This document shows, one piece after another, positions 3,058-13,302 of a stretch of DNA of 64,000 nucleotides. Both the position numbers and the translations under genes were made by a program. Each line of letters begins with the position of its first letter. The first letter of the stretch is position 1. Source of the stretch: Antedon mediterranea (taxonomy: Eukaryota; Echinodermata; Crinoidea; Comatulida; Antedonidae); NCBI RefSeq assembly GCF_964355755.1, contig NC_092673.1, forward strand, positions 29,765,001 to 29,829,000. The letters are read 5' to 3'. The notes below the pieces were generated by a model, which saw nothing but the letters and a program-made list of their open reading frames with translations, ran no database searches and was not told where the DNA came from.

Positions 3058-3224
3058 GCTTTAGGTTCTTTAAGTAAAAAAAAACATTAATCAGATTTGT
3101 TTGATATGAAGAAACATCAGAGTGGTATTATTTTCTAAAAAGATGTACAAATAAGACAAATATGCTTGAGAAGTAAATTCATATGATGGTAACTGTAAAG
3201 GTTATAATAGGAAAAGCCTTCGTA

Positions 3225-3475
3225 AAATATGCACAGTACTTACAAAGAAGAACATGTCAACGAAATAGAATAACATTTTTAAAATATGCATAGTACTTAC
3301 AAAGAAGAATATGTCAACGAAATAGAATAACATTGTAAGATAACCCAGTACTTACAAAGAAGACCATGTCAACGAAATAGAATAACATTTGTAAGATATA
3401 CACAGTACTTACAAAGAAGAACATGTCAACTAAATAGAATAACATTTGTAAGATATGCACAGTAAAATACATTAC
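3225..3475. repeat. 57-bp minisatellite, short array (about 4 units)
   Basis: Units of CAGTACTTACAAAGAAG... with about 57-bp period. It stands in front of the first intact TRIM gene, in the same place as the long array 7361-8655 before the second gene, so it belongs to the duplicated unit. Confidence 0.8.
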
Positions 3476-3913: not shown

Positions 3914-6005
3914 ATGGCTTATCACTTGCTAGATGAATTGAAAGAACAAACACTAACATGTCAATTATGTTTTGAGGTTCCCGGAGGAGGAGCACAAGGT
4001 GATACAAATGTTTTCAAACAGCTAAGTTGTTCTCACATATTTTGTAAATCATGTATTCAAAAGTGGACAGTAGCAGAAGGCTATTGTCGTGGAATTATCA
4101 CTTGCCCTAATTGCAGGAAGAAAATCAGGGGGAATGTAGACGCACTTCCGTCAGCATTTCAGGTTACAAATGTGATCGAATGGATAAATAAGAAACAACA
4201 AGATAAGTCGACAAATCGAGTTTGTCGTGAGCATGGAGTACAATTGAATTTCTTCTGTCTCGATTGCTCAGCATTTGTATGTGGTGATGGTTTGAGATTA
4301 TCACAAAGTCACGAGGAGCACACAACATTGTATGTTAAAACCGAAGCAGAACCAATACGCAAGGCGGCGCAAGATATGATGGAAGAAATTAAATTTCGAA
4401 TGGGCCACTGGAAGAAAGCTCATGAAGAAGTCAGGGGAATGATATCGAGTATTGATGATGATACATCAAAAGCGTTGGAATTATTAGAGAAATATACGGA
4501 AGAAATAAAAAAAAGTCTGATATCAGCTCAAGATCTTTTAAGAAAAACAATAATGAACACACAGAAGAAAAAGATTGAAGTACTGGAAAAAGAAAAATAT
4601 GCAATCATAAGGAAAATCCAGGAAATTGAGAAGAAGATATTAGAACACCAAGAATCAATGAAAAAAGCAGATGAATTTGAGGTATTCAATGAACACGTTG
4701 CAATCACTAAAATGCGTCAAGAATTCCTGAGAGATCAACTTCCAGACACGACACAGATGACCAAACAAACAGAAGATGATTCATTAAGGTTTGCACCAAA
4801 TTTCATCTCTCTCAGACGCCTGAAAAATGATATTGCTCATTTTGGTAAAGTGCATAATAAATCTGAAAGTAAGTATATATTATACATAAACTTCGATAAT
4901 TTAATTTATACATATTATAAAGTAGAGCTAATACATACAGTATCAGTAAATACAGAAGAGTATTAAATAACTATAGTAAATTTTTTTTACTCGAAGTTCA
5001 CTTTATGTTGTCCATATTTTTTTTATTGTTAAATGGTTATTTAACTTATCAATTTTAGGTCACCTTTTTTCTATCTGTATCTAATTCTTTTAATTAACTA
5101 ATTAGGCCTAATTGATTTAAAATATGTTCTTCTACCTATATCTTGACCTGTTGAGCTCCATTACAAGAAAGTATGTGCCTAAATTACTGTAGTATTATGT
5201 TTGAGCACAGCAAATTCAATAACTTTATTTAATATTGAATGATAATTAGATATAATTTATTTAATAATCAATGATTAATATCAATTAACCAGTTGAATTT
5301 GGATGTTCTACAAGATTGTTGGTCTATATGATCGTATATGATCTAGAAATATGGAAAGTGGATTCACAGAAAACTGTTGACTTTTATTTTTCAGAATCAT
5401 TAAAATTCATATCAACTTCATATTCTAAAGGATTATCTCGACAAGTGTTGAAAACCATGGAAGATGTGGTAAAGGAAGCCTACGAACTAGACTTATCAAA
5501 TATGGAAAAAGTTGAAGACAGAAGAACCAAACTGACATTTATTGTAAAGCATTTGGAAGATGTTCTTGAAGGAGAATGGAATTGCATTTTAGGTGATTTT
5601 GAAAGATCGCAATGGCCAGTGCAAGTTAACAAAACTGTGAATTTCTTGGTAAATGACACAGACAATGTCATTATTTATAAATTAGTAGGAGTGGAAGAGC
5701 AGAAAAAATATGAAAAAGAAGTAATTTTAAAAAAAGAAGAATATTCCAGAGTAGAAGTGTTGAACCCAGCTTTAAAAGAGGTATACAACAACGCGCCGAG
5801 CCAGTGGCAAAATGTTAAACAAAGCAACACGTCACAACGAAGTTATTCTAAACAACAGCTTTTGGATATGAATGCGAATCATTCTATTTCTGATGATACT
5901 TACCGCGTTTTAAATGGTTTTGGAATTTTGCGTCATTCTCGTCGAAAAGCAGGTAATAACAAGGCCATGTACATGGCTGCAGTCGCGTGCTCAAATTTGA
6001 GTTAG
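3914..6005 (+). CDS. TRIM-type RING/B-box/coiled-coil protein with LC8-like domain, copy 1
   Basis: Two exons, 3914-4868 and 5395-6005 (donor GTAAGT, acceptor TTTTTCAG), give 521 residues. RING finger: Cys16, 19, 39, His41, Cys44, 47, 64, 67. B-box: Cys104, His107, Cys115, 118, 123, His133, 136. Residues about 145-265 are a coiled coil rich in Glu, Lys and Leu. Exon 2 (about 335-412) aligns with dynein light chain LC8, with Trp380 opening the motif WNCILG where LC8 has WHCIVG. RING plus B-box implies a ubiquitin E3 ligase; the LC8-like part would be a dimerising or peptide-binding module (inference). From about residue 465 the tail leaves the paralogue and reads like the N-terminal part of a CR1/L2-type LINE protein (YSKQQLLDMN, GILRHSRRKAG), so a LINE insert supplied the stop. 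The ATG at 3914 is chosen because the paralogue shares it (AAAATGGCT). Confidence 0.75.
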
Positions 6006-7312
6006 TGTACCAACCAACATAGTGAGCTGTAAAAAACGTATATATCATGTACCTAGGCCTAAAAACATTAGAAACATTGTAAAATATAATAATCTTGCTC
6101 CTGGTAGGAAAAATAAAGAAAATCTTCGTGCTATTCTCTGCGTGAATCAAATTTTGAATATCAACGTTCACCTGTGAACGAATTAAGACCGTCATCTTCG
6201 CCGATCACGTCCTGCTTTACGATGTTAACATACTACTGGTTACTATAGACGTGGTTGACTATTGATGATCAGAGCCACTAACAACTATGGGGAATCAGGT
6301 ATACAGGTTACTTCATAAAAATCACTAAATGTATCCCTATCTTCATCTTCCTATACTTACGCGAGTTTTGAACATTGTGTTATTAGCGTACAGAATAAAG
6401 TTAAACTAGTTGGTATTTTTTTTATATATGTGATTTTATTCAATTAATTATACATTTTTTGGTATTATAATGGTAACCATAATAACGTGTATTTACAGTG
6501 ATTTTTACCCCAAAAAAATATAAATTATAATATATACAGTGATTATTTACAGTAATAATAATAAAAATTAATAGTTTTATAGACTTTATTCAAACAGAAG
6601 TTGAATAATAAAATACTGAATAAATACAAAGTTTCATTAGAGGTTTACAATCAATAGAAAAGATGAATACATATAATATTCTAAGTATCAAAACTAGCAG
6701 ATAGTGTTTAGGAAGATTACACGGTATATTGGCAGCGGCCTACAAAATGAACATGGTTATAAGCAAAATTTACGTATTGATTGATTGATTGAATCGGGCA
6801 TCACTATAAGCAAAGCTTTAAAATGTGATGTCCTATTTAACAATTAAAAATTGGGAAAAAAAAATAATTTTAAAAAATATATAAAAAAAAATTTACGCCC
6901 TCCACCATCTCGAGCAAATGGTCTCCGGACTAGTACATTTCTAGCAGAAGTATAATTTTTTTCGAAGAAATTGTTGTTATTCCTAATGATAATTAATTAA
7001 ATGATTAATGGTGATTTCAACCTACATGTGGACATTCCCGGAAAGTGGGAGACTGCCGAATTTATAAATATACCGACTCAAACAGGATTTCATCAATACA
7101 TAAATCAACCGACGCATAAAATGGGTCACATCCTGGACTTAGTTATATCTCGTACAGAAGATAATGACATTGAACGTGTACAGGTGTATCCTTTAGAATA
7201 CTCGGATCATCAAGTTGGATGTATAGTGCCGAGAGGTATACATTATACAACACTGTATAAAAAGGGTGCTCAATCTTATTTGGCAATAATTTTCCGGAGA
7301 GTAATGATGTAA
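5800..7312 (+). mobile_element. Broken LINE (CR1/L2-type) 5' part downstream of copy 1
   Basis: Two pieces read in the same direction. 5800-6130 gives a LINE-like N-terminal motif (YSKQQLLDMN...RSRRKAG pattern) followed by broken frames. 7001-7230 gives an endonuclease-like stretch with GDFNLHVD, INQPTHKMGHILDLVI and SDHQVGC, the pattern of the APE endonuclease of non-LTR retrotransposons. No reverse transcriptase is left. The first piece overlaps the coding end of the TRIM gene. 6260-7000 between the pieces is AT-rich with no gene seen. Confidence 0.55.
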
Positions 7313-7360
7313 ATATTCTCGTAGATTCCTTTGTCTCGATGACATACATAGTAGGGCCTA

Positions 7361-8655
7361 CTTACAAAGAAGAACATACCAACGAAATAGAATAACATTT
7401 GTAAGATATGCACAGTACTTACAAAGAACAACATGTCAACGAAATAGAATAACATTTGTAAAATATGCACAGTACTTACAAAGAACAACATGTCAACGAA
7501 ATAGAATAACATTTGTAAGATATGCACAGTACTTACAAAGAACAACATGTCAACGAAATAGAATAACATGTGTAAGATATGCACAGTACTTACAAAGAAG
7601 AACATGTCAACGAAATAGAATAACATTTGTAAGATATGCACAGTACTTACAAAGAAGACCATGTCAACGAAATAGAATAACATTTGTAAGATATGCACAG
7701 TACTTACAAAGAAGAACATGTCAACGAAATAGAATTAGATGTGTAAGATATGCACAGTACTTACAAAGAAGAACATGTCAACGAAATAGAATAACATTTG
7801 TAAGATATGCACAGTACTTACAAAGAAGACCATGCCAACGAAATAGAATTAGATGTGTAAGATATGCACAGTACTTACAAAGAAGAACATGTCAACGAAA
7901 TAGAATAACATTTGTAAGATATGCACAGTACTTACAAAGAAGACCATGCCAACGAAATAGAATTAGATGTGTAAGATATGCACAGTACTTACAAAGAAGA
8001 CCATGCCAACGAAATAGAATTAGATGTGTAAGATATGCACAGTACTTACAAAGAAGAACATGCCAACGAAATAGAATTAGATGTGTAAGATATGCACAGT
8101 ACTTACAAAGAAGACCATGTCAACGAAATAGAATTAGATGTGTAAGATATGCACAGTACTTACAAAGAAGACCATGTCAACGAAATAGAATAACATTTGT
8201 AAGATATGCACAGTACTTACAAAGAAGACCATGTCAACGAAATAGAATAACATTTGTAAGATATGCACAGTACTTACAAAGAAGACCATGTCAACGACGA
8301 AATAGAATAACATGTGTAAGATATGCACAGTACTTACAAAGAAGACCATGTCAACGAAATAGAATAACATTTGTAAGATATGCACAGTACTTACAAAGAA
8401 GACCATGCCAACGAAATAGAATAACATTTGTAAGATATGCACAGTACTTACAAAGAAGACCATGTCAACGAAATAGAATAACATTTGTAAGATATACACA
8501 GTACTTACAAAGAAGAACATGTCAACGAAATAGAATAACATTTGTAAGATATACACAGTACTTACAAAGAAGACCATGCCAACGAAATAGAATAACATTT
8601 GTAAGATATGCACAGTACTTACAAAGAAGACCATGCCAACGAAATAGAATAACAT
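7361..8655. repeat. 57-bp minisatellite, long array (about 23 units)
   Basis: Units such as AGTACTTACAAAGAAGACCA followed by TGTCAACGAAATAGAATAAC, period 57 bp, with a few variant types (ACATTTGT or TTAGATGTGT segments) alternating. As 57 is a multiple of three and one minus frame lacks stops, a long repetitive minus-strand frame arises that I do not regard as a gene. The array ends about 490 bp before the second TRIM gene. Confidence 0.9.
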
Positions 8656-8785
8656 GTGAATGCACAGAGATCACACAAAAAAATCCAGAATTAAAAAACA
8701 AACAAACCATGTCTACGCCGCCTCTAGGCCTATAGAAAACTTTAATTCATCTGCATGTCTTAGCTGTCAAATGTAAATTGTATTC

Positions 8786-8793
8786 TATAAATA
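8786..8793 (+). promoter_or_regulatory. TATA box candidate of the second TRIM/LC8-like gene
   Basis: TATAAATA in the same conserved context as 3577-3584, about 355 bp before the ATG at 9148. Confidence 0.45.
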
Positions 8794-9024
8794 CGGTATT
8801 GTTAAAAAAACGTGTATGATTAGTAAATATCTGCTTGGATTCTTCAATTTAAGTTGGTCTAACTGTGTTTTGTAAATAAATTTATTAAAAAAATCATGTA
8901 TTGCGTCCGTGTTTTCCTATCTGAAATGGCCTAGCTTTCATTGGCTGACTATGGTGTGATAATGGTGGTGCCAGAAACAAACATTTACATCACGCCCTCA
9001 ATAATAGTATAAATTATAAGAACA

Positions 9025-9035
9025 GGGGAATCCCC
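9025..9035. promoter_or_regulatory. kappaB-like palindrome upstream of the second TRIM/LC8-like gene
   Basis: GGGGAATCCCC, identical in sequence and nearly identical in distance (113 bp before the ATG) to the site of copy 1. Confidence 0.5.
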
Positions 9036-9147
9036 TTTCAGATATTTGGGAAAATCGATTTTGACATCCCACGCCATTTACAATTCAGTAACTAGACCTC
9101 TAGTCTTAGCGTTTAGCCGCTCACGGCCTATATGTTTTTTCGTTAAA

Positions 9148-11018
9148 ATGGCTTGTGCCGTGTTAGATGAATTGAAAGAACAGGCACTAACATGTGAATT
9201 GTGTTTTGAGGTTCCTGGAGGAGCACAAGGTGACACAAATGTTTTCAAACAGCTAAGTTGTTCTCATGCATTTTGTAAATTATGTATCCAAAGGTTGGCA
9301 GAACAAGTACGAGTAGAAGAAGTACTACCGTTAAGCGAAATATTGCACAGGTATAGATATCATGATCAAGATAATTATGGTTGGCGTCGAAATATTGCTT
9401 GCCCTAATTGCAGGGCCATTACCTCTATAGAAGGAGAGGATGTAGACAACGGGGTAGACAAACTTCCATCCGTATTTAAAGTTACAAATGTGATCGATTG
9501 GGTAAATAGGAAGCAAGAAAAGGAGAAAGAAATGAAAGATCGAGTGTGCAGTGTGCACGAAGGAGTACCATACAATTTCTTCTGTCTCGATTGCTCTAAA
9601 TTTGTCTGTGGTGATGGTTTGAGATTAACAGATAGTCACGAGGAACACACAACGTTGTATGTGAAAACCGAAGCAGAGCCAATACGTAAGGCAGCTCAAG
9701 ATATGATGGAAGAAATTGGATGTCAACTGGGCCACTGGAAGAAAGCTCATGAAGAAGTCGAAGCAATGATATCTATTATTGACGATGACACATCGAAAGC
9801 AATGGAATTATTAGAGAAATATACAAAAGAAATAAGAAAAAGTCTTATTTTAGCTCAAGATCTTTTAAGAAAAACAATAATGAACACACAGAAGAAAAAG
9901 ATTGAAGTACTGGAAAAAGAAAAAGATGCAATCTTGAGGAAAATCCAGGAAATTGAGAAGAAGATATCAGAACAACAAAAATCAATAAAAAAAGCAGACA
10001 AATTTGAGGTATTCAATGAACACGTTGCGATCACTAAAATGCGTCAACAATTTCTTGCAGACAAATGTCCTGACTTAGCACCAATGATGGCCCAACAAGC
10101 AGAAGAATCATTAAAGTTTGAACCAAATTTCATCTCTCTCAAACGCTTGAAAAATGACATAGCTCGTTTTGGAAAAGTACACAAACAATCTGAAGGTAAA
10201 ATAAATTATACAGTATGTTTTCCCTACAGTAATACTTTATATTTTTTTTAACTTGATTGAACCTGGATTAATAATTATTATTTATATCATCAACATTGTA
10301 TCATGTTTGATGATGTTTGAAAATAATTGTTATTAGCAAATGGCAAATTAAACTGTGATGTTTGTTTTTTTTTTAATTTTCAGAATCATTTTCTATAACA
10401 ACTTCATATTCTGAGGGATTATCTCCAGAAATGTTGAAATCCATGGAAGATGTGGTAAAGGAAGCCTACGAACTAGACTTATCAAAAGTAGAACAAGTTG
10501 AAGACAGAAGAACCAAATTGACATTTATTGTAAAGCATTTGGAAGATGTTCTTGGAGAAGAATGGAATTGCATTTTAGGTGATTTTGAAAAATCAATACG
10601 ACCAGGGGAATTTAACCAAACTGTGACATTCCTTGTCAATGAAGTGGACAATGTGACTATGTGTAGCAGCTTTAGCTTTATAAATGAAGAGGAAGAATAT
10701 GAGTGTGAAGAGGAAGAAGAAGAGGAAGAATATGAGTGTGAAGAGGAACAGCATGAAGAACAAAGGTATACCAGAAATGTTAAACTAGGGGAATATTTGC
10801 AAGAAATGGCTAGAGAAGTAGAACAGGTGGAACAATTGCAAGATAAATATTGTGTTAACGATGAAGACAATTATGCCAGAGAGGTGCAACATGCAGAACA
10901 CTTAAAAGATATGAAGGAAGAAGTAAATGGAAGAAGAGACAAGAAAAGCTATCGAAGACTTTACAGAAAACAAAAAATGAATAAAAGATTGGCAAGGCGT
11001 GATATGGATCAATTATAA
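9148..11018 (+). CDS. TRIM-type RING/B-box/coiled-coil protein with LC8-like domain, copy 2
   Basis: Exons 9148-10195 and 10384-11018 (phase 1 junction, acceptor TTTTCAG) give 560 residues. RING: Cys16, 19, 38, His40, Cys43, 46, then 38 residues to Cys85 and Cys88; copy 1 has only 16 there, so this RING has an enlarged loop. B-box and coiled coil are close to copy 1. The LC8-like region has Trp410 in WNCILG, preceded by an amphipathic helix (FIVKHLEDVL) where LC8 has its helix 2. It is followed by an acidic repeat (EEEEYECEEE) and a basic tail (KKSYRRLYRKQKMNKR). Likely an E3 ligase with an LC8-type module; partners unknown. This copy probably shows the ancestral C-terminus, since units A and B share parts of it. 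Confidence 0.8.
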
Positions 11019-11689: not shown

Positions 11690-13060
11690 ACGCAGAAGCC
11701 AAACAAACAAAGCAAGATTCGTTGGACCTTTCTCTAAATTTCATCTCTCTCAAACGTTTACATTATATACATTATTACATTATATAGGGGGTCTCTGTTT
11801 TCGAGTTTTTGTCGAAAACAGAGACCCCCACTAAAACGTCTCAATATTACATTATGTAGGGGGTCTCTGTTTTTGAGATTTTCTCGAAAACAGAGACCCC
11901 CTATATAACGTAATATTGACTTAATATTGAGACGTTTTAGTGGGGTCTCTGTTTTCGAGAAAAACTCGAAAACAGAGACCCCCTATATAATGTAATATTG
12001 AGACGTTTTAGTGGGGGTCTCTGTTTTCGAGAAAAACTCGAAAACAGAGACCCTGGGTCTCGGGTCTCTGGTCTCTGTTTTCGAGGTCTCTGTTTTCGAG
12101 ACACCCAAATTTGAAGTGTTTAATGAACACGTTGCTGTCACTAAATTACGTGAAGAATTCCTGACAGATCAACTTCCTCACACAACAAAGATGACCAAAG
12201 AAACAAAGCAAGAATCATTGAAGTTTTCACCAAATTTCATCTCTCTCAAACGTTTGAAAAATGATATTGCTCATTTCGGAAAAGTACATAAGAAATCTGA
12301 AGGTAAATATTGAAATCTATAAGTTTATAAAAACACAAACTTATATATAAATATGCATATAGACAAAATAATAAACTTGATTGGGAAAATAATATGAAAT
12401 TTAATTTATTTATGTAACAGCCAAACTGATAGCGGAGTATTTCGACTACGAGTAATAACATAAATAGTAATCGGTTGTAAAAGCATTTTTTTACGTCTAC
12501 CGTTATATAATGGTAATAAAAATGTCACGGTGAAAATAAAGCATTCTAAGAGTAATTGTAGACACTTACTTCACATACTGTAAAATTATAATCTGAACTC
12601 ACATAGTAAATATTACATTATTTTTGTAGAATAACAAAATTTCATTTATTTATTTGCATTTATTTATGTTGTTTTTAGAATTATCGATTGTCATAAAGCA
12701 TTTAAATTTTGAGGGAGTAACACCAACTTTGTTGAAATGGATGCAGAATGCTATATATAAAGCATACTCACTAGATGTATCAAAATTATCTCACCTTGAA
12801 GAAAGAAAAACAAAAATTAGATGTATTGTTAATCGTTTGATACATGACCTTGGAGAAAAATGAAATTGTTGTATTGGTGATTTTACACAAGTTCATTGGT
12901 CAGGCATGAAAGGTCAGGTGTTTACTGTAAATTATGTGGATAGTGTTAGTATCTACAAGAGTGAAGCAATCATGGAGGAGCATAAAGTGTCGCCAAAAAA
13001 AGAAGCAACAATATTGCACAGTAGTTATAAAACAGAAACAGATGAAAAACGTCAATAAAT
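11690..13060 (+). pseudogene. Decayed TRIM/LC8-family copy (unit E)
   Basis: 11693-11761 and 12110-12305 both match the end of exon 1 (NFISLKRLKND core); the second ends at the usual donor (GAAGGTAAAT). Exon 2 starts after TTTTTAG near 12680 and reads through the LC8-like domain. The conserved Trp codon of the W.C.I.G motif is TGA (12861-12863). After this stop the frame goes on with NCCIGDF and SVSIYK until TAA near 13058. RING and B-box are absent. A cluster of hairpins (11787-12106) separates the two exon-1 remnants. Loss of the 5' end plus the nonsense codon mark it as a pseudogene. Confidence 0.75.
11787..12106. repeat. Cluster of tandem perfect hairpins
   Basis: At least four hairpins in 320 bp, each with a stem of about 19 bp built on GGGGGTCTCTGTTTTCGAG and its inverse around a 5-7 base loop, joined by linkers ACTAAAACGTCTCAATATTA in alternating orientation. 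The right end decays into short direct copies of GGTCTCTGTTTTCGAG. It resembles nested foldback MITEs inserted in the exon of unit E. Confidence 0.85.
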
Positions 13061-13107
13061 ATCAGTTTACTGGTGATACAGCCTTCAATATCTCTCAGTG
13101 AGAAGTT

Positions 13108-13302
13108 TTGACATTTTTTGTTTTTATTTTGGAAATGAGTGCTTTGATGAAAACACCTTGGCAGTGCATCATTCACAATAATGCTAGCATTGGCTTAAGT
13201 AAACAGCACATTGAAAGAATGAGGATTGATATACCATCAATGGTGACGGTGAGAATTAATGGTAAAGATGTTTGGTTGTTAAAAATGATTAGCTTTGAGT
13301 GA
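13108..13302 (+). pseudogene. Possible second LC8-like fragment
   Basis: This frame has WQCII and, about 34 residues later, INGKDVWLLK, followed by a stop. The pattern (Trp-x-Cys-Ile-Ile, then a hydrophobic strand with Gly and Leu-Leu-Lys) echoes LC8 (WHCIV ... LGQVAILLFK), with roughly nine extra residues between. It lies just after the unit E pseudogene. It may be a relic or a small gene with an upstream exon I cannot see. Weak evidence. Confidence 0.3.

Follow-up and report, generated by a model that had tools for sequence, protein, structure and literature searches.

The window analysed here (64,000 nt of contig C4, NC_092673.1, 29,765,001-29,829,000) covers a segment of an array of tandemly arranged genes for TRIM-type E3 ligases with a C-terminal LC8 module. 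In a reading that we hold with moderate confidence, this LC8-fold module would act as the dimeric target selector of a TRIM subfamily. The combination of a TRIM module with an LC8-type domain, proposed in the initial annotation, is borne out by profiles made from sequences outside the window, by models of the window sequences, by eleven loci of the same genome and by an intronless gene on contig C2. To us, this is an apparently new class of TRIM C-terminus, of LC8 type and present in one or two copies.

Gene content of the C4 array

Two intact two-exon genes lie within the window, both on the + strand (3914-6005 and 9148-11018; feature positions are window coordinates), with spliced products of 521 aa for gene 1 and 560 aa for gene 2. 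The features of the array in the window are as follows.

1-115, + strand: end of exon 2 of U2, an upstream intact copy (acidic tail and stop)
1352-2634, + strand: degenerate relics of another copy (RING, B-box and tail pieces; tblastn)
3914-4868, + strand: gene 1 exon 1, with RING (about 3959-4114), B-box (about 4211-4330) and putative coiled coil
5395-6005, + strand: gene 1 exon 2, LC8-type domain, then C-terminal tail
5409-5687, + strand: gene 1 LC8-type domain (profile search, profile-profile comparison, structure model)
9148-10195, + strand: gene 2 exon 1, with RING carrying an insertion (about 9193-9414), B-box (about 9535-9657) and putative coiled coil
10384-11018, + strand: gene 2 exon 2, LC8-type domain, then acidic tail
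10395-10673, + strand: gene 2 LC8-type domain (profile search, profile-profile comparison, structure model)
12089-12301, + strand: pseudogene 3, remnant of the 3' part of exon 1
12705-12965, + strand: pseudogene 3, LC8-type domain interrupted by TGA at 12861-12863 (profile E=9.7e-5)
13105-13302, + strand: pseudogene 3, faint trace of a second LC8 domain, frame-shifted (PWQC...)

The window begins inside the tail of U2; the TRIM exon and the LC8 segment of this copy occupy C4:29762833-29764999. The third window copy (12089-13302) is a pseudogene in which the TGA takes the position of a conserved Trp. Intact members of the C4 array are U2, gene 1 and gene 2, each with one LC8 domain; the broken ones are U1 (upstream, without the LC8 exon), the relic at 1352-2634 and pseudogene 3. 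An endonuclease-like fragment, below cut-off, was observed at 7001-7240, and the gene 1 tail, checked for a transposon origin, gave one weak partial match elsewhere.

Exon 1 had been described as RING, B-box and coiled coil, and Pfam matches and zinc ligands agree for the RING and the B-box. On the spliced proteins, the B-box (PF00643) scores 29.0 bits in gene 1 and 28.3 bits in gene 2, both above cut-off; it also exceeds the cut-off in the family members of contigs C7 and C9, and twice in the C2 gene. The RING is above the Pfam cut-off in gene 1 (25.4 bits) and in the C7 and C9 members, and falls just below it in the C2 gene and in gene 2 (19.0 bits), where a long insertion separates zinc ligands; the ligands are present in both. 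A long charged heptad-like region after the B-box, read from the sequence, is the putative coiled coil.

In 9/9 two-exon genes checked, the exon of the putative coiled coil has a conserved end followed by a phase-1 donor, and the acceptor is of phase 1 in 8/8 genes where it could be placed (C7b left out). Because intron phase 1 is conserved and the C2 gene is intronless, a spliced fusion of exon 1 to exon 2 is, on these sequence grounds, close to certain. In the C2 gene, where everything is read in a single open frame, the fusion is independent of splicing.

Relationship of the C-terminal domain to LC8

Searched alone, the window proteins give sub-threshold matches to Dynein_light (PF01221), with 14.3 bits for gene 1 (E=0.056, residues 341-414) and 12.3 bits for gene 2 (E=0.23). 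The direct Pfam search thus leaves both below the cut-off, yet the match sits where LC8 had originally been seen. A domain-1 profile was made from the C2, C7 and C9 sequences, with the window sequence excluded. Against the PDB it finds dynein light chains at E=1.2e-11, its significant matches being dynein light chains and an LC8-like fluke domain; the domain-2 profile finds dynein light chains at 5.4e-13. In a scan of six frames over 74 kb (the window plus 10 kb upstream), the domain-1 profile matches gene 2 (5.5e-9), gene 1 (1.4e-5), U2 (8.2e-5) and pseudogene 3 (9.7e-5), with no match outside the LC8 domains of the window cluster.

Profile-profile comparison of the window domains with the TRIM-LC8 domains of other contigs gives 96.5% over 78 columns, the best of 100 column-shuffled controls reaching 2.3%. 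Direct comparison with the ordinary LC8 of this genome is weak (34.5% over 40 columns), although above all 100 shuffles, and when the window profile is searched against the PDB, the top match is a designed protein (aBAK), LC8 appearing only at E=0.09. Since the direct comparison is weak, the case for homology of these domains is built on the models and on the TRIM-LC8 members that serve as intermediates.

These models, made from the window sequences of genes 1 and 2 only, present the order strand-helix-helix-strand-strand-strand. The gene 1 model (pLDDT 63) matches LC8 structures with Z up to 9.4. For the gene 2 model (pLDDT 71), the best matches are LC8-type structures, with Z of 8.3-11.0 and rmsd of 1.9-3.2 over about 80 residues; among them is the LC8-like fluke structure 5fx0 (Z 11.0, rmsd 2.2, 84 residues). 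Next come one fungal protein (Z 7.9) and Tctex-type light chains (Z 6.1-7.9). The structure prediction proposed as a check on the LC8 assignment has thus returned LC8 structures at Z 8-11 for window sequences modelled as monomers, with moderate overall confidence and an unsure strand 3 region in both (pLDDT below 50). Details of the first alignment have fared unequally. Its gapless match to LC8 stands only from helix 2 to the next strand, whereas the loop between helix 1 and helix 2 is longer than in LC8 and the alignment of the strand 3 region is unconvincing; of the strand pattern, NVIIYK is seen in gene 1, but gene 2 has a degraded final strand (NVTMCSSF).

By the profile comparisons, the resemblance of the window domains to LC8 is far beyond chance, and profiles together with predicted models place these domains in the LC8 fold. 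That the resemblance is fortuitous, or that two adjacent genes have been wrongly joined, could be argued from the scores of the window domains on their own, below the Pfam cut-off. We give this idea virtually no credit and reject it: the order is identical at eleven loci on four contigs, the intron phase is conserved, the profiles are significant, and the single-frame C2 gene already contradicts it.

The TRIM-LC8 family and its evolution

The Dynein_light search covered the whole 354-Mb genome, with the Pfam cut-off of 29.1 bits. The assembly comprises eleven large contigs, each 22-41 Mb long, together with small remaining pieces; this fits eleven chromosomes and would suit a comatulid crinoid. 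Ordinary LC8 genes were found on C3 (twice), C6 and C1; all other matches above the cut-off in the whole genome, each locus being read individually, lie behind a TRIM module. Relaxed to E=10, the search returned 17 matches, namely five ordinary LC8, ten from the C2, C7 and C9 TRIM genes, gene 1 (E=0.48) and one unassigned match with an internal stop.

In this genome, a TRIM module is joined to an LC8 segment at eleven loci on four contigs: U2, gene 1, gene 2 and pseudogene 3 on C4, three loci on C7, three on C9 and one on C2. Exon 2 queries from family members retrieve small closed sets (four on C4, three on C9, three on C7). The C2, C7 and C9 members have two tandem LC8 domains, and C7b and C9b appear incomplete. 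Exon 2 segments of C7 and C9 match Dynein_light at E=2e-13, 9e-13 and 1e-13, with two stretches each. The intronless C2 gene, a single open frame of 606 codons, encodes in order a RING, two B-boxes, a putative coiled coil and two LC8 domains, and scores 83.2 bits with Dynein_light (E=1.7e-23). With at least 150 B-box matches in the genome, TRIM-LC8 proteins are a small class among many TRIMs. The family had been thought to be expanding; it is indeed expanded, with clustered copies as well as pseudogenes.

Selection is mostly purifying on both exons. Pairwise dN/dS is 0.42-0.50 (C4) and 0.21-0.25 (C9) for exon 1, and 0.47-1.06 (C4), 0.31-0.39 (C9) and 0.19-0.46 (C7) for the LC8 exon, which within C9 evolves faster than exon 1.

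The number of LC8 domains differs between the clades. Within the window, no second LC8 domain was found beyond the weak relic of pseudogene 3, which scores 57 in pairwise alignment with domain 2 of C7a (at most 47 in 1000 shuffles) and is not matched by the domain-2 profile in the 74-kb scan. In the domain tree, first domains except that of C2 cluster together (91/86), and the C7 and C9 second domains are placed beside LC8. The sequences suggest that the tandem was probably ancestral and that its second copy was lost in the C4 clade. A single origin of the tandem appears likely, although support for the deep branches of the tree is poor and domain 1 of C2 sits on a long branch.

Possible role of the LC8-type module and known systems

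To compare binding surfaces, we used 19 positions of LC8 structures presumed to form the TQT-peptide groove. On these positions, the TRIM domains retain 1-4/19 identities with LC8 and an ordinary LC8 paralogue of this genome 15/19. As judged from these residues, the TRIM domains are of LC8 fold but are not functional LC8. Since the groove residues are almost all replaced, canonical TQT binding is unsupported, and recognition of the short linear motifs of LC8 should not be assumed; for the same reason, the ligand probably differs from clade to clade and is neither a TQT peptide nor dynein.

This bears on two ways in which the module could use ordinary LC8 partners. It might be a bait, as in TRIMCyp, with pathogen proteins that bind the cell's LC8 being caught by the fused copy and ubiquitinated: LC8 is bound by viral phosphoproteins (PMC12017986), TRIMCyp sets a precedent in which a TRIM has acquired a hub-type protein of the host (PMC4936896), and the TRIM-LC8 family is clustered and multicopy. 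Such a bait would however be expected to keep the groove intact, contrary to what is seen, and we judge it improbable. The domain might also serve transport, by docking the ligase to dynein or to some other usual partner of LC8. This accords with the homology to dynein light chains, but the groove is not conserved and ordinary LC8 genes are still present to do so, which makes it very improbable.

By analogy and from the sequences, we prefer, to these two possibilities and to pure assembly, a dimeric module that recognises a new ligand. It is suggested by the loss of the groove together with three precedents: target binding by the C-terminal module of TRIM5 and of TRIMCyp is weak, avidity coming from assembly through the tripartite motif (PMC4936896), LC8 builds two grooves through strand exchange between protomers (PMC12017986), and the LC8-like dimer of fluke CsTAL3 persists without conserved interface residues (PMC5431922). 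While domain order, copy number and selection were computed, for the mechanism we infer the following steps. B-box and coiled coil would bring the chains together as antiparallel dimers and, beyond these, as larger arrays. Target selection would fall to the LC8-fold module, in the place held by SPRY or cyclophilin in other TRIMs, and the RING, with an E2, is predicted to ubiquitinate the selected target. In single-domain members the LC8-type dimer would form between two chains; in tandem members a pseudo-dimer inside one chain may be possible.

Alternatively, the module could be an assembly device only, clamping or cross-linking TRIM dimers into arrays, with target choice residing elsewhere, for example in the variable tails. 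The dimeric nature of LC8, the suitability of tandem copies for cross-linking, the retention of the fold despite the lost groove residues and the strong difference between the tails of genes 1 and 2 are compatible with it. We nevertheless find it rather unlikely, as TRIMs are already dimerised by their coiled coil and the LC8 domains of genes 1 and 2 differ mainly in their sheet half (16/29 vs 9/56), more like a changing binding face; the degraded final strand of gene 2 accounts for part of this sheet-half difference.

On a broader scale, and only as a tentative proposal, TRIM-LC8 proteins may form an ancient, lineage-specific class of recognition E3: a hub protein, once captured, would have been duplicated to give a tandem pseudo-dimer, with its client groove rewritten separately in each clade. 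If so, LC8 would be a diversifying recognition scaffold, like SPRY in vertebrate TRIMs. TRIM targets are recognised via a small set of C-terminal modules. In LC8, dimerisation itself creates the binding site, and the sequence is usually constrained by many clients. An LC8-type module would add a dimerisation-built binding site inside an already dimeric protein, making the coupling of assembly and target binding testable. It would also mean that LC8 can escape client constraint by fusion and then diversify. The combination suggests a new way for TRIM ligases to pair or to choose their targets.

No TRIM fusion to a dynein light chain or LC8 was found in titles and beginnings of abstracts of the open-access papers searched, and dynein is absent from the text of a survey of TRIM C-termini (PMC2533329). 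As in the TRIM-SPRY and TRIM-NHL proteins described there, RING, B-box and coiled coil (putative in the present family) are encoded in one exon followed by a C-terminal domain, which here consists of one or two LC8-type domains. With LC8/DYNLL, the module shares the fold, the conserved Trp-x-Cys and Gly of strand 2, and the strand-helix-helix-strand order; it differs in its fusion to an E3 ligase, its often tandem arrangement and its replaced groove residues. The fluke proteins FhCaBP2 and CsTAL3 (EF-hand plus LC8-like) likewise have a divergent LC8-like domain as C-terminal module, but a single one, and its partner is a calcium-binding domain instead of RING and B-box. TRIMCyp (TRIM5-cyclophilin A) resembles the present family in placing a small, independently folding host hub protein behind the tripartite motif, in a clustered family. 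In TRIMCyp, however, cyclophilin retains its ligand pocket, whereas in TRIM-LC8 proteins the fused domain is often tandem and deeply diverged, and its groove has been rewritten.

The 3' end of gene 1 and repeats in the window

The tail of gene 1, the first TRIM-LC8 gene, past its LC8 domain (window 5750-6005) is unlike that of every other copy. An endonuclease-like fragment, recognized by a sub-threshold Pfam match, lies downstream of this tail (window 7001-7240), and the original 3' end of the gene may have been replaced by a transposon insertion. Tandem repeats also lie in the window:

window 3222-3464: shorter array of a 57-base unit, ahead of gene 1
window 7359-8655: tandem repeat of the same 57-base unit, 22.7 copies at 95%
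window 11773-12100: 72-base tandem units that lead straight into pseudogene 3, a broken TRIM-LC8 copy, at its truncated exon 1

Since 57 is a multiple of three, long open frames remain on both strands of the 57-base repeat. Each 72-base unit contains a near-perfect hairpin (GGTCTCTGTTTTCGAG...CTCGAAAACAGAGACC).

RING/B-box genes on contig C7

Between the TRIM-LC8 genes of contig C7 are located two other genes:

L012:8466-9365 and L034:2881-3906 (minus strand), stretches of C7: RING/B-box genes

Neither frame contains an LC8 segment; both genes terminate in a hydrophobic run resembling a membrane anchor. On the same contig of the whole genome (G000), several dozen B-box frames are densely arrayed at about 26.5-27.8 Mb; this array is a large, separate TRIM-like expansion.

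An intronless gene, nearest of its family to ordinary LC8

Contig C2 carries a further member of the family:

G000:C2:16903126-16904904 (stretches L011, L040): intronless TRIM-LC8 gene that encodes two B-boxes and two LC8 domains as well as an acidic linker

It constitutes a suitable query to begin looking in other species, and is the TRIM-LC8 family member nearest to ordinary LC8.
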